Shown here one piece after another: positions 35,812 through 41,460 of a stretch of DNA of 64,000 nucleotides. Each line of letters opens with the position of its first letter. Positions within the stretch are counted from its first letter, which is position 1. Source of the DNA: Niveibacterium sp. SC-1. Lineage in GTDB: Bacteria > Pseudomonadota > Gammaproteobacteria > Burkholderiales > Rhodocyclaceae. Made by a program: the position numbers and the translations under genes. The notes beneath the pieces were generated by a model. It was not told where the DNA came from. It was given only the letters and a program-made list of their open reading frames with translations, and did no database searches. The stretch spans positions 124,001 through 188,000 of the forward strand of contig NZ_CP151275.1 in assembly GCF_038235435.1 (NCBI RefSeq). The letters are read 5' to 3'.

Positions 35812-36690
35812 CTAGTCGCTGGCGACGGCAGCCTCGGCCTGGCTCATCAGCAAGGCGTGCAGCATTTCCGTGGAGAGGCCGTGCAGCACCAGGCGGAAGC
35901 CCGCCCGCAGCGTGCTCAGGGGCACCAGCGGATGCTTGTTGTTGAGCAGGATGAGGTGCTCGGGCGAGCCGAGGATGGTGGCGCAGTAGATCGCGATGGT
36001 CTCATCGAGCTGCAGGGAATTGGCGGCGCGCCAGAAGTCGTTGTCGGTGAGGAAGAGCTGGTACACCGGCGTGAAGATCTCGATCGCGCTCTGGATGTCG
36101 ACGACGTTGGTCCAGCGGCGCGGCATGTCCTCCAGACGCAGGCCGGGGTCGCGGATCATCGAGAAGTCCGGCTCCGCGACGACGCCGAGATCCTGGCCGC
36201 GCTCGCGCAGGGCCAGGCCCAGGCGGATCACGAAGTTGAAGAGATTCAGGTCGTGCTTGAGGAAGAGCTCGTCCTTCAGGTCGTCGATGGTCTGCGGCGT
36301 GAGCGGACTTGTCTCGACCCGCGTGGGGGCATTGGCCGCGATGAAGGCGAGTACCTGCGCGCCCAGATGGAAGTGACGCAGGATCAGCCAGTTGGCCTCC
36401 GGCGTCACGAAGTTGCGCAGGCCCCAGGCGAGCAAGCGGTGCAGGGTGATCGAGGCCGACCAGGTGCGCGGCACGAAGAGCTTGATGACCTGGATCAGCA
36501 CGATCAGTGCGCGCGCGGTCGGCCGCAGGAAGGGCAGCAGGAACTGGCGCGAGCGCGAGCTCGAATCCTTGAGCCAGGCGCGCTTGACCGGGTCGGTCAT
36601 GGGCGTGCTGCGGTCCAGGTAGAGCGCGAGCCAGGGCGAGGGATCGCGCGGATCCCAGGCCTGGTCGAGGAAGTCGTCGGTGGGCTTCAT
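35812..36690 (-). CDS. Unknown protein coupled to the lipid operon (292 aa)
   Basis: This 292-residue protein is probably of a DUF6999-like family of unknown function. It has one or two hydrophobic helices (about 55-75 and 105-120) in a mostly helical protein, with ETSPLTPQTIDDLKDELFLK and HDLNLFNFVIRLG in the middle. Its ATG overlaps the stop of the ketoacyl synthase fusion gene by 4 bases, so it is the last gene of the four-gene operon. Its consistent coupling suggests a partner or accessory role in the same lipid pathway. Confidence 0.7.
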   Translation of the reverse strand: MKPTDDFLDQAWDPRDPSPWLALYLDRSTPMTDPVKRAWLKDSSSRSRQFLLPFLRPTARALIVLIQVIKLFVPRTWSASITLHRLLAWGLRNFVTPEANWLILRHFHLGAQVLAFIAANAPTRVETSPLTPQTIDDLKDELFLKHDLNLFNFVIRLGLALRERGQDLGVVAEPDFSMIRDPGLRLEDMPRRWTNVVDIQSAIEIFTPVYQLFLTDNDFWRAANSLQLDETIAIYCATILGSPEHLILLNNKHPLVPLSTLRAGFRLVLHGLSTEMLHALLMSQAEAAVASD

Positions 36691-38579
36691 GCGGTCTCTT
36701 CGAGGACGTGTTCGAGTTGCATCAGGTAGAGCTCGGCGGTGCGCCGCGCGGTCTGCAGGATCTGCATGTCCGCGTTGTCCTGCGGATCGACTGCGAGTGC
36801 GAGCGTGACACCGGTGAGCCAGCGCGCGAGGTGGTGTTCGTCGTTCTCGCCGTGGTAGTCGAGGAAACGGAAGAGTCCCGGCGCGAGGCCGAGCTGCGCT
36901 TTGAGCAGCGGCAGCAGCGCGGGGATGATGCGCTGGCCGGTGCCTTCGATGATGTAGATCGCACCGAGCAGGCCAACCGGATTGGGACGCGCGGCCAGCG
37001 CGTGCAGATAGCTGTTGAGCGCCTCGCCGCCCGGATTGCGGCGCAGGGCGTCGATGCTCTCCACGCTGCCGCCGGCGGCGCGATAGTCCTGGAAGAGGAT
37101 GTTGAAATCGAACTGCTCATCCTGCGCATGCGCCTCGACCAAGCTGCCGAGCGCGTCGTAGGGCGGACGCAGCGAGGCGACAGCCTCGCGCATCCACTTC
37201 GAGCCCTCGCGTACCTGCGGGATCCAGCAGGCCATCCAGGCGAGGTAGTCGTCCTGCGTCATGCGGCGTTCGCGCAGCTTGCGGATCAGCGGCGAGCGCC
37301 AGGCGCGCGAGCGGTAGTCGTGCCACACGCCGGCGAGGCCCTGGAGCAGCTGCGCGATGCGCGGATCGGCATGCTCGGGCGCATGGGGCGCGGGCACGTC
37401 CGGCGCCTCGTCGAGCACCGCCACTGCAGTGGGCGATGACAGGCTGCGTGGCGCGTCGGCCGCTTCCACTTCGAGCAGGAAATACGCGGTGGTGAAGCGA
37501 CCCGATTCGGGCACGTAGCAGAAGATGCGTTCGCCCGGTTTCACCGCGTGAGTGTCGAGAAACTCCGCCAGCATGATGAAGATCGAGGCTGCGCCGGTGT
37601 TGCCGCGCCACTTGAGGTTGCTGTACCAGCGCTCGCGCGGAATCGCGAGGCCGGCCTTCTGCATCAGCTCGTCGACCACCGGCAGGAAGCGCTCGGAGGA
37701 GTAATGGCAGAGGAAGTGGTCGATGGTCTGCGGATGCACCCAGCCCCCTTCCACCAGCTTCACGTACTCGTGGATGCCGATGTCGAAGAGATGCGGCAGG
37801 AGGCGGATGTCCTGGCGCAGCGACAGCGCGCCCGCCGCCTCGGCCGCGCCGCAGGAGTCGTAGTCGAGGAAGGAGCGTGTGCCATCGCGGGTCAGGCCCA
37901 GCTGCATGCACACCGGGTAGTCCCCGGAGAAGGCGCGCTGGTGCACCCATTTGAGCCTGAGCCGCAGGCCCTTGTGCCCGCGCGGATTGCGGCTGAGCAG
38001 GAAGGCGCCCGCGCCATCCGAGAGCATCCAGCGCAGGAAGTGCGCATCGAAATCTGCGTCGTAGCCCTGCGGCGCGAAGCGGCTGCGCTTGAACATGCGC
38101 GAGGGCATCTCGCTGGTCACGACCAGGGCGTTCTCGTGGGCACCCAGCTCCAGCGACTGCGCGGCAAAGCTCAGCGCATTCACACCCGCCACGCACACGC
38201 CCTGGCTGCTGATCACCTCCATCGGGGGCGCGGCGAGTTCGCCCTGGATCATGTTGGCGAATCCCGGCATCAGCACGTCGCCGCCCGAGGCGCCCGCGGC
38301 CAGCAAGGAGACCTCCGCGATACGGCGGCCGCCGCGTTCCAGGCAGTCGCGCACCGCATGCGCCGCCATGGTCGCGTGCGAGAAGCGGGTGGCGCCCTGG
38401 TCATCGACCGCGTAGTAACGCTGTTCGATGCCGTTCTCGGCGAGGATCTTCTGCTTGACCCGGCCCGAGAGGCGGTTGAGCGGCGCGATGTACTGGTCGA
38501 TCTCCGCGTTGGAGACCGGCTCGCCGGGCAGGAAATAGCCAGCGGCGTCGAGATAGACCTGGGAGAAAACGGTGGGCAT
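36687..38579 (-). CDS. Ketoacyl-ACP synthase III fused to a heme-oxygenase-like di-iron domain
   Basis: This 630-residue protein has two domains. Residues 1-375 form a thiolase-fold ketoacyl synthase III with an intact triad: Cys129 (SQGVC), His292 (LCHYS) and Asn327 (GNTGA). After a Pro/Ala linker, residues 405-630 form a helical heme-oxygenase-like domain of the iron-containing redox class. Possible ligands are Glu482/Glu488, Glu545 (IIEGTG), His576, Asp580 and His583. Relatives of the second domain, such as UndA, oxidise fatty acids. The fusion suggests condensation or acyl transfer followed by oxidation. It starts 5 bases after the desaturase stop. The open frame continues upstream to 39374 but runs through the desaturase gene, so I begin at the ATG at 38579. 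Confidence 0.82.
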   Translation of the reverse strand: MPTVFSQVYLDAAGYFLPGEPVSNAEIDQYIAPLNRLSGRVKQKILAENGIEQRYYAVDDQGATRFSHATMAAHAVRDCLERGGRRIAEVSLLAAGASGGDVLMPGFANMIQGELAAPPMEVISSQGVCVAGVNALSFAAQSLELGAHENALVVTSEMPSRMFKRSRFAPQGYDADFDAHFLRWMLSDGAGAFLLSRNPRGHKGLRLRLKWVHQRAFSGDYPVCMQLGLTRDGTRSFLDYDSCGAAEAAGALSLRQDIRLLPHLFDIGIHEYVKLVEGGWVHPQTIDHFLCHYSSERFLPVVDELMQKAGLAIPRERWYSNLKWRGNTGAASIFIMLAEFLDTHAVKPGERIFCYVPESGRFTTAYFLLEVEAADAPRSLSSPTAVAVLDEAPDVPAPHAPEHADPRIAQLLQGLAGVWHDYRSRAWRSPLIRKLRERRMTQDDYLAWMACWIPQVREGSKWMREAVASLRPPYDALGSLVEAHAQDEQFDFNILFQDYRAAGGSVESIDALRRNPGGEALNSYLHALAARPNPVGLLGAIYIIEGTGQRIIPALLPLLKAQLGLAPGLFRFLDYHGENDEHHLARWLTGVTLALAVDPQDNADMQILQTARRTAELYLMQLEHVLEETA

Positions 38580-38584
38580 GGCGC

Positions 38585-39439
38585 TCAGGACTCCGGAGGG
38601 CGCATCAGGCTGTGGCCGCGCCAGCGTGGCGACAGCGGGGCGAGAAGGAAGCTGCGCAACATGTAGCGCAACAGGCTGGGTTCGAGGAGCCGCGGATCGA
38701 TCCGCGGACGCAGTTCGCGGTGCGGGCGCGGGAGTTCCGACCAGTGCAGGCGCGGGTTCAGGTGGTGGGCCGTATGCAGGCCGATGTTGAACCAGCAGCG
38801 GTTCACCGCGCCTTCGAAGTTGCGCGCGAAATTGATCCGCGAGCGGCCGTCGGCATGTGCGTGCTGCAGGTAGTTGGTGGCGAGCAGCCAGTGCAGGCCG
38901 TGCAGTTGCGGCAGCAGCACATAGAGCAGGGTCTTGCCCGGCGAGAGCAGCGCGAGTCCGCCCCACAGCGCGAAGAGCGCGGCGTATTGCAGCAGGTAGT
39001 AGCGCCACACGCCCGGCGCCCGCTGGCGCATACGCGCAAGGTGGTCGAGGAAGAGCGGGTAGAGCACCTGCACCGCCTGCGCCGGATGGATCAGGTAGCC
39101 CCACAGGTGATTGTGGTCGCCACCGAAGCGGTAGGTGCGCGCCACGTCGCGCGGACCGTGGTGGTAGCGGTGGTGGTTCGCGCGGTGGGCGGGATGGAAG
39201 GCGAAGATCGGATGTCCCTGTTCGAGCGTGAGCACGAAGTCGGTGATCCGGTTGAGCCGGCGCGAGCGCCACATCGGCAGGTGGGCGTGGTTGTGGTTGA
39301 TGACGCTGACGCCGACGGTGAGCCACAGCGCCGCGAGATAGAGCGGCCAGGAGAAACCGTGCCGCCATTGCCATGCGAGCAAGCCGGGCAAGGCGAGCAG
39401 GTAGGCGAGGCTCTGCAGGTCCGCGCGCCTACGCAGCAT
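38585..39439 (-). CDS. Membrane fatty acid desaturase
   Basis: This 284-residue membrane di-iron enzyme has the three histidine boxes: H49-x3-H53 (HNHAH), H85-x3-HH (HRANHH) and H222-x2-HH (HTAHH), plus His193. Hydrophobic segments flank the boxes. It introduces a double bond or related oxidation in an acyl chain at the inner membrane. I chose the ATG at 39439, which overlaps the upstream gene by 11 bases; an ATG at 39481 would overlap more. Neither has a strong ribosome site. It is the second gene of the operon. Confidence 0.85.
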   Translation of the reverse strand: MLRRRADLQSLAYLLALPGLLAWQWRHGFSWPLYLAALWLTVGVSVINHNHAHLPMWRSRRLNRITDFVLTLEQGHPIFAFHPAHRANHHRYHHGPRDVARTYRFGGDHNHLWGYLIHPAQAVQVLYPLFLDHLARMRQRAPGVWRYYLLQYAALFALWGGLALLSPGKTLLYVLLPQLHGLHWLLATNYLQHAHADGRSRINFARNFEGAVNRCWFNIGLHTAHHLNPRLHWSELPRPHRELRPRIDPRLLEPSLLRYMLRSFLLAPLSPRWRGHSLMRPPES

Positions 39440-40202
39440 GGCGATCCGCACCCGCGCGCTTGAGGACGACATCGGCCGCATCGTCGGCCAGCGCCGTGCC
39501 GCAGAGCCGGTCGAGCAAGGGCGAGAAGAAACCGTAGTTGCCGCGAAAGCAGGCGTGGTGCAGATGATGGCGACGCCCCGCGGTCAGCCAGCTGCGCCCG
39601 CCGCGCGCGGGGAAGGCATCGTAGTTCGCATGGCCGATGCTGTTGATCGCGAGGCTCAGGATAGGCAGCGCGAAGAGCGCCTGCCAGCTGAAGCTCCAGG
39701 CCAGCATCGGCAGCAGCGGCACGCTGCCGAGCAGGGCGGCTTCCACCGGATGGAAGGCGTAGGTGGAAAACGGCGTGGTCACATGCGAGCGGTGATGCTG
39801 GATGTGAAACCGCGGGAAGGCCCAACGGGTGTGCAGCAGGCGGTGATGCGCATAGAAATGCGCTTCGTTCCAGAGCAGCAGGACGCCGATCTCGACGAGG
39901 ATGCGCAGGAGCGAGGCATCGCTGCGCACGCTGGCCCAGCCCGCCCTGAGCAGCCACCAGGGCAGCAGGATGCCGACGCCGAAGACGAGGATGGAGAGCA
40001 GCGCCTCGCCGATCTCGCGTCGCCGCTGTTGCGCACGCAGCGGTCGCCGGTCGAGGACGCGCCCGATGCCGAGACCCCGTAGCGCTCCGGTCACCAGCAG
40101 GGTGAGCGCGGCGAAACCGAAGTACAGGGTCGCGAAGTACGCCAGGCCCCAGAGGGCGACCTGCCAGGGCAGGAGCGCAATGAAGGCGGGAACGGGGCCC
40201 AA
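39429..40202 (-). CDS. Sterol desaturase/fatty acid hydroxylase superfamily protein
   Basis: This 257-residue integral membrane protein has the histidine clusters of the superfamily: EAHFYAHHRLLH (His115-His124), HIQHHRSH (His133-His140), His191 and RRHHLHH (His212-His216). These bind a di-iron centre for hydroxylation or desaturation of lipid chains. The annotated start is a TTG at 40202; no ATG or GTG is available before an in-frame stop, so the start is uncertain. It heads the minus-strand operon of desaturase, ketoacyl synthase fusion and DUF gene. Confidence 0.82.
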   Translation of the reverse strand: MGPVPAFIALLPWQVALWGLAYFATLYFGFAALTLLVTGALRGLGIGRVLDRRPLRAQQRRREIGEALLSILVFGVGILLPWWLLRAGWASVRSDASLLRILVEIGVLLLWNEAHFYAHHRLLHTRWAFPRFHIQHHRSHVTTPFSTYAFHPVEAALLGSVPLLPMLAWSFSWQALFALPILSLAINSIGHANYDAFPARGGRSWLTAGRRHHLHHACFRGNYGFFSPLLDRLCGTALADDAADVVLKRAGADRHAA

Positions 40203-40331: not shown

Positions 40332-41048
40332 TCATGCGAAGCCAAAGTGCAGTGTTTCCTGGGGATTGCGCTGCCAGACCGTGCCGCCGGGGGTCACGGT
40401 GAGGAACCAGGTTTCCGGTTGGGGTGCCTGGCCCGGCACCAGGCCGCCCGGGTCGAGCAGGGCGACGCAGAGGCCGTGCTCCGGATCGCGCACCGAGCGA
40501 TAGGCGATGGCCTGGGCGCCGGCGGTCCGCGCTTCGCGGGCGACCTGCTGGGTCGCGGCGTAGTCGTCGGGCGCCATCCAGCGCGCGGCGTAGTTGGAGA
40601 AGGGCGGACGCAGCAGGTCCACCGTGCGGGCGACGATCTGCGCGGAAAACAGGCTCATCGGGTGCGCGTCGAGCTGGCGCAGTCCCGCGCTCGCCTGCAC
40701 GAAGCGCCAGCGCCAGTAGCCGCATTCCGCGCAGGCGGTGGCGCGCGCTTCGGCGCCGTAGAGCACGCCGGGATCGTGCGGCCCGCGAAAGCGGCTACCG
40801 CTGCCCCAGGGCGGATAGCGGAAAGGCGTGGCGAGCAGCCAGTGCAGGCCCTCGGTCTCCGGAGGAAGCGGCGGCTTGGCGCCTTCCAGCAATTGTTCCA
40901 GCACGGCCTGACGGGCGGGGTCGTTGTCCACCAGGCGCATGGTGGCGACGCGATGCTGGGCCTCGACCGCACGCCAGGCGGACAGGCTCAGGGTGCGGCA
41001 GTCGGCCGCCGAGGGAATCGGAAGGGAAGCGGGAAGAGCGCTGGACAC
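40332..41048 (-). CDS. RES-domain toxin
   Basis: This 238-residue protein has the RES domain: the SRFRGPHDPGVLYGA segment and TACAECGYWR supply Arg86/Arg88, Tyr97 and Glu108, the conserved set after which the domain is named. RES toxins consume NAD or modify targets and stop growth until neutralised. The start is GTG at 41048 with AGGAGG 6 bases ahead. It follows the Xre-type antitoxin gene by 25 bases, the standard order for RES-Xre modules. Confidence 0.88.
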   Translation of the reverse strand: MSSALPASLPIPSAADCRTLSLSAWRAVEAQHRVATMRLVDNDPARQAVLEQLLEGAKPPLPPETEGLHWLLATPFRYPPWGSGSRFRGPHDPGVLYGAEARATACAECGYWRWRFVQASAGLRQLDAHPMSLFSAQIVARTVDLLRPPFSNYAARWMAPDDYAATQQVAREARTAGAQAIAYRSVRDPEHGLCVALLDPGGLVPGQAPQPETWFLTVTPGGTVWQRNPQETLHFGFA

Positions 41049-41073
41049 GAGGAGCCTCCTGGCGGTACGCGGG

Positions 41074-41460
41074 TCAGACCCGGGCGCGCACGGCGTCCAG
41101 ATAGTCGGCTACATGTACCAGACCGGAGATTTGCAGGATGAGCTCGGCCGGCTTGCCGCGCAGTTCCTGGTTCTCGCTGTGCAACCAGGCGCGTGCATCG
41201 GTCTCGCGACCGGCGACGATGGAGTCGAGCGAGCGGAAGAGTCGCAGGAAGAGCAGGGCCAGATCCCACTCCTTGCGGTTGGGCTCCAGCGCATACGCAC
41301 CCTGGCGCATGCGCGTGACGGTGGCGGCCGACACGCCCAGCAGTTTTGCCAGTTGCTGCTGCGGGAGGGCCAGCAGATCGGCCGCGCGCAGGCAGGCGCC
41401 GGTGAGGATCTCCCGGGCCTGTGCGGGCTGCGTATCAGCGACGGGCTTGGTGTTTTCCAT
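41074..41460 (-). CDS. Xre/MbcA/ParS-family antitoxin
   Basis: This 128-residue protein pairs with the RES toxin. The N-terminal half has a helix-turn-helix (LAKLLGVSAATVTRMRQGAY at about residues 38-57). The C-terminal part, ending ISGLVHVADYLDAV, resembles the MbcA/ParS toxin-binding domain. It should bind the toxin and repress its own promoter through the dyads at 41477-41489 and 41504-41515. Confidence 0.87.
   Translation of the reverse strand: MENTKPVADTQPAQAREILTGACLRAADLLALPQQQLAKLLGVSAATVTRMRQGAYALEPNRKEWDLALLFLRLFRSLDSIVAGRETDARAWLHSENQELRGKPAELILQISGLVHVADYLDAVRARV

Follow-up and report, generated by a model that had tools for sequence, protein, structure and literature searches.

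Ketosynthases of the StlD/DarB type join a beta-ketoacyl thioester to one with an unsaturated acyl group, giving 2,5-dialkylcyclohexane-1,3-diones, as passages of PMC4578411 relate, and the dar clusters of Azoarcus BH72 and Variovorax hold, in the parts of PMC3949708 that list their genes, a DarA aromatase, an acyl carrier protein (ACP), an ABC transporter and a peptidase-like gene. For the heme-oxygenase-like di-iron oxidases (HDOs), sections of a review give three histidines and three carboxylates as the usual ligand set (PMC13108848). Here we analyzed a 64,000-nucleotide stretch of Niveibacterium sp. SC-1 DNA (contig NZ_CP151275.1, positions 124001-188000 of a 5.17-Mb single-contig genome; hereafter the window), whose minus strand carries an operon of four intact genes that encode two membrane oxidases, a ketosynthase (KS) fused to an HDO domain, and a protein of the Pfam family DUF6999. 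The KS is nearest to the StlD/DarB ketosynthases in both sequence and fold, and the KS, the HDO and DUF6999 form a conserved core to which the membrane oxidases are replaceable additions. The product of the operon, we tentatively propose, is a two-chain lipid that is oxidised and probably cyclic.

Like the dar clusters, the operon has a ketosynthase and, as proposed here, a ring-oxidising partner, and the genera in which the two occur are partly shared; in place of DarA, the ACP, the ABC transporter and the peptidase-like gene, it has the HDO, DUF6999 and the membrane oxidases. The hydroxylase and desaturase genes overlap by 11 bases, or by 53 bases if the desaturase starts at the alternative ATG at 39481, the desaturase gene is separated from the KS-HDO gene by a 5-base gap, and the KS-HDO and DUF6999 genes share 4 bases. 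A preliminary description of this DNA, made from its letters, had proposed one operon of four overlapping or nearly touching minus-strand genes of these families, which the coordinates and the Pfam scores above curated cut-offs bear out. The features are as follows.

39429-40202, minus strand: FA_hydroxylase/sterol-desaturase superfamily membrane protein, first gene (257 amino acids, TTG start; Pfam match)
38585-39439, minus strand: membrane fatty acid desaturase (284 amino acids, or 298 from the ATG at 39481; Pfam match)
36687-38579, minus strand: ketosynthase-HDO fusion gene (630 amino acids, ATG at 38579; Pfam match)
37464-38579, minus strand: StlD/DarB-like ketosynthase domain, residues 1-372
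38193-38195, 37704-37706 and 37599-37601, minus strand: KS catalytic residues C129, H292 and N327, respectively
36690-37367, minus strand: HDO domain, residues 405-630 (Haem_oxygenas_2)
36831-37130, minus strand: candidate HDO metal ligands H484, E488, D491, E545, H576, D580 and H583
35812-36690, minus strand: DUF6999 (PF22523) protein, last gene (292 amino acids; Pfam match)

Ketosynthase domain and its relatives

The KS part matches the Pfam domains ACP_syn_III_C (37.6 bits) and ACP_syn_III (25.8 bits), both above the curated cut-off. The catalytic Cys, His and Asn, a set shared with StlD/DarB, are found as C129, H292 and N327, just where the preliminary description had called them intact, and none of the 47 fusion proteins compared lacks any of them; the catalytic histidine aligns with H302 of StlD. 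That description took the domain for a generic ketoacyl synthase III, an assignment we replace by that of an StlD/DarB relative. The operon KS is about 34% identical to StlD versus about 18% to OleA, and in the fold comparison StlD was nearest and OleA second. A plain ketoacyl synthase III (FabH) is ruled out, the FabH model giving 59 bits where its cut-off is 292.1; the presence of a separate FabH-like gene in the genome, at G000:C1:1646278, also counts against it.

Plain membership of the StlD/DarB family is likewise ruled out by score and by tree position. The family model NF005293 (StlD/DarB family beta-ketosynthase) gave the window KS 333.2 bits, below the curated cut-off of 450, and its scores ranged from 302.3 to 413.4 bits in the 13 complete DUF6999 genomes and from 302.3 to 347.8 bits in 8 genomes reached via loci. 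In a 37-row tree, StlD groups with the 20 unlinked KSs (support 100/100) and this clade contains none of the 16 operon KSs, the window KS falling within a group whose 13 rows have support 97/92. An operon-type KS and a true StlD/DarB family member coexist in 3 of the 23 genome entries scored; the entries G547 and G878 have identical places and scores. The operon KS thus differs from StlD/DarB in its lower score, its position outside the clade, and the HDO fused or adjacent to it.

Condensation of two chains by a thiolase-fold KS is also the reaction of OleA and PpyS, according to passages of PMC4578411. A linear head-to-head route would have the KS join two acyl chains without a ring, as OleA does, and the HDO turn the resulting beta-keto acid into an alkene or ketone by cleavage or decarboxylation, with the membrane oxidases modifying the hydrocarbon. 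We regard this as improbable: StlD is clearly nearer than OleA in sequence and fold, the neighbor genes are others and include no OleB/C/D-like gene, and the HDO domain gave no match to NCBIfam models at an expectation value (E) of 1 or better. An alkene product of the UndA type is possible but less favored. When the KS model was searched with Foldseek, the next families after StlD were AbyA1 (tetronic acid) and PqsD, a ranking that would suit a KS acting as an acyltransferase or as a maker of alkyl-quinolone- or pyrone-like signals, with the HDO oxidising the small-molecule part, for example by N-oxygenation; many HDOs do use nitrogen or amino acid substrates in the review sections cited above (PMC13108848). 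However, the operon contains no amino-acid- or amine-activating gene, and no non-operon gene cluster lies near most loci (the widest is in 38 of 91 sources), so that we give this explanation even less credence than the linear route. Two-chain condensation with cyclisation is likelier than either acyl transfer or an UndA-like alkene, both of which the preliminary description had proposed, because the KS is a relative of StlD/DarB.

Candidate metal site of the HDO domain

Haem_oxygenas_2 (PF14518) matches the HDO domain with 44.9 bits against a cut-off of 28.9, and the match starts at residue 495, so the first ligand helix falls outside it. Three histidines (H484, H576 and H583) and four carboxylates (E488, D491, E545 and D580), which are candidate ligands by sequence, are invariant in 12 diverse HDOs, in 84 loci (a count in which at least one genome appears twice, as L020 and L046) and in 47 of 47 fusion proteins; E458 is nearly but not fully invariant among the 12 diverse HDOs. 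The spacing of E545, H576, D580 and H583 corresponds to that of the later ligands of CADD, E142, H174, D178 and H181. The sole PDB sequence match at E 5 or better was 3dde, a protein of unknown function, and in the alignment with it both H484 and D491 stand opposite a histidine. The metal-free structure model of KS-HDO has a mean predicted local distance difference test score (pLDDT) of 83.2 and a predicted template modeling score (pTM) of 0.60, and its HDO part is all-helical.

The domain shares with the HDOs UndA, CADD, SznF, BesC and PolF a Haem_oxygenas_2 match over the cut-off, a helical build and, on the later ligand helices, the conserved glutamate and the HxxxDxxH motif. It differs from them in the H484/E488/D491 first helix, with D491 opposite the 3dde histidine, and in being fused to a ketosynthase, a partner that goes unmentioned in the available sections of the HDO review (PMC13108848). 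Judged from these residues, a dimetal site with a rearranged first ligand helix is likely. A loss of the di-iron ligands, which the preliminary description had named as the outcome that would speak against it, is not what the alignments gave: ligand-type residues are invariant, and those of the first helix are rearranged.

Conserved core and replaceable membrane oxidases

When species-representative genomes were scanned with a DUF6999 alignment, 392 relatives were obtained, the best 80 of which were kept as loci; these are near relatives (69-76% identity in DUF6999), a sample biased to close ones. In 79 of these 80 loci the hydroxylase, desaturase, KS, HDO and DUF6999 follow in one order on one strand, and the owners include Achromobacter, Bordetella, Variovorax, Comamonas, Delftia, Azoarcus, Cellvibrio and others. 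The four-gene set, whose lack of conservation the preliminary description had considered, is thus kept together across many soil and water bacteria. The sole exception, a Vicinamibacteria metagenome-assembled genome (MAG; L027), has all parts, with the desaturase and DUF6999 genes pointing away from the fused KS-HDO gene and the hydroxylase match. The ratio of nonsynonymous to synonymous substitution rates (dN/dS) is 0.05-0.39 for all five parts in six species pairs, and the operon is under purifying selection. The same two Pfam domains as in KS-HDO, at no less than 65% identity, are present in the 120 best homologs listed, and these together with the 79 loci exclude the fusion as an accident of a single genome.

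Operon counts were taken from tblastn because the open reading frame (ORF) caller missed operon genes at some loci, detecting the desaturase in 59 of 91 sources. In these 91 sources the flanking genes vary between genera, and when gene clusters are ranked by how widely they occur, the first four are those of the operon itself. The next most widespread, in the 38 sources mentioned above, encodes a 477-amino-acid protein that looks aldehyde-dehydrogenase-like by eye.

Beyond these near relatives, wider samples of genomes were searched for DUF6999. It occurs in 7 of the 369 sampled from the class, in 9 of the 398 from the phylum and in 2 of the 147 from one alphaproteobacterial order, together 15 distinct genomes; a control set gave a match in Caulobacter vibrioides as well. 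KS and HDO adjoin DUF6999 in 13 of the 15, fused in eight (G000, G224, G019, G521, G547, G665, G699 and G728) and as separate neighboring genes in five (G302, G077, G717, G573 and G849). Intact hydroxylase and desaturase genes are present in 5 of 12 complete loci (G000, G224, G521, G699 and G728), a tally that leaves out G547, the upstream region of which is outside the data. Six genomes (G019, G077, G302, G573, G717 and G849) gave no hydroxylase or desaturase match in the examined stretch, which for G302 is a contig of only 5.8 kb. In G665 no hydroxylase match lies beside the intact KS-HDO-DUF6999, and the desaturase match (L116:12479-13302, minus strand) is split into two pieces in different frames, by decay or sequencing error. 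Two genomes speak against a tight unit: G074 has DUF6999 (L022:7892-8776, minus strand) without an HDO, its best NF005293 score of 46.7 bits indicating no KS, and G052 (L025:1317-2356, plus strand) holds only fragments of DUF6999 and KS. Because KS and HDO stand beside DUF6999 in 13 of 15 genomes, we take these three as the core and the two membrane oxidases as replaceable. The four-gene unit of the preliminary description thus holds as a conserved set, but its membrane oxidases lie outside the conserved core.

Both membrane oxidases belong to the di-iron families assigned to them earlier. FA_hydroxylase (PF04116) matches the first gene with 82.4 bits (cut-off 31), and 12 of its histidines show 98% identity or more across 83 loci; FA_desaturase (PF00487) matches the second with 86 bits (cut-off 29.7), and its His boxes are kept in 84 loci. 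A sequence search with the desaturase gave no solved relative. The fourth gene product, previously an unknown 292-residue protein, keeps that length and place but is not family-less, matching DUF6999 (PF22523) with 435.5 bits against a cut-off of 27. Its model is confident and helical (pLDDT 89.8, pTM 0.89), and it matched no PDB entry at an E of 0.001 or lower.

The presence of two membrane fatty-acid oxidases would also fit membrane-lipid remodeling, in which the KS does no more than provide an unusual primer or a lengthened chain, and acyl chains of phospholipid or lipid A are modified by the HDO, desaturase and hydroxylase, without a new scaffold. The hydroxylase's best NCBIfam match, a weak one, is the ornithine lipid hydroxylase OlsE (16 bits, cut-off 475), and in one alphaproteobacterium a 1133-amino-acid MFS/acyltransferase/AMP-binding (AMP-ligase) fusion (L115:5700-9098, minus strand), presumably resembling an LplT-Aas fusion, adjoins KS-HDO-DUF6999, after DUF6999; both point the same way. 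On the other side, the KS belongs to a two-chain class, and KS-HDO-DUF6999 persist without both oxidases in alpha- and gammaproteobacterial loci. We consider remodeling unlikely, if less so than the linear route.

In two gammaproteobacterial loci, a 188-amino-acid membrane protein precedes the KS (L114:11444-12007, minus strand, Colwellia; L023:2623-3186, plus strand). It has no Pfam match, and several sources label it 'diguanylate cyclase', which looks wrong. Across 21 sequences, D26, H30, E36, E43, H47, H81, E82, H86, D88, E102, H104, H106, E172 and E173 are invariant, and the protein looks like an undescribed His-rich membrane metalloenzyme.

Proposed route and genomic setting

Lipid chemistry is the most likely field of the operon, in line with the unusual lipid suggested at the outset. 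Going by its kinship with StlD and DarB, the KS would, like them, condense two fatty-acyl thioesters, here drawn from primary metabolism, and close a ring of the 1,3-cyclohexanedione type. This product would pass to the HDO domain of the same polypeptide, where a di-iron site would use O2 to oxidise it; the simplest outcome would be a resorcinol, the alternative a further hydroxylated or quinone ring, with the domain perhaps standing in for DarA, the separate aromatase of dialkylresorcinol clusters. Double bonds and hydroxyl groups may in turn be introduced by the membrane di-iron enzymes, into the alkyl chains or into the product held in the membrane; other lineages would have a different His-rich membrane protein in their place, or none. 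The KS-HDO pair would have DUF6999 as its obligate partner, which may be an acid-base or metal enzyme that carries out a decarboxylation, dehydration or transfer step. We propose ring oxidation by the HDO, and tailoring of the chains, because the KS is fused to an O2-using oxidase and no DarA-like gene is among the four.

Several points weigh against this route. The operon KS scores below the StlD/DarB cut-off and outside the clade, and its reaction may therefore have changed; similarly, D491 stands where 3dde has a histidine, so the metal site may differ from those of known HDOs. No ACP, ligase or exporter gene lies within the operon, and common membrane lipids could be the substrates of the membrane oxidases. 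No gene of the operon resembles DarA, the rest of the genome not having been searched for it, and a distant homolog is possible. We know of no HDO that acts on a cyclohexanedione or resorcinol, and the substrates in the review sections available are fatty acids, amino acids or protein side chains (PMC13108848).

In its widest form the proposal is more doubtful: KS-HDO-DUF6999 would be the core of an undescribed lipid pathway of alpha-, beta- and gammaproteobacteria and one acidobacterial MAG, in which a two-chain ring is built by a KS class neighboring StlD/DarB and oxidised by an HDO whose first ligand helix is rearranged (a new HDO substrate class), DUF6999 is a new enzyme family with an unsolved fold, and membrane oxidases of unrelated families are recruited for tailoring. 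All enzyme classes of the operon except DUF6999 are already known. We found no description of the operon in the open-access literature, and within that literature the earlier statement that no pathway with this exact set is described holds; subscription papers were not covered and absence is unproven. If the proposal is true, an operon of such well-studied genera as Variovorax, Achromobacter, Bordetella and Comamonas makes a seemingly undescribed lipid, HDO enzymes gain a new substrate type, the ring-oxidation step of dialkylresorcinol-type biosynthesis has a second solution, and a function is found for DUF6999, the confident model of which matches no solved structure. The operon is compact, self-contained and present in culturable organisms, and is thus open to experiment.

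A promoter-like site was looked for upstream of the operon and none was found. The neighbors on that side, in the same direction, are genes for a RES-domain toxin and an Xre/MbcA/ParS-type antitoxin (40332-41460, minus strand); with these upstream, and with no DarA or ACP among the operon genes, a plain dar cluster is ruled out.

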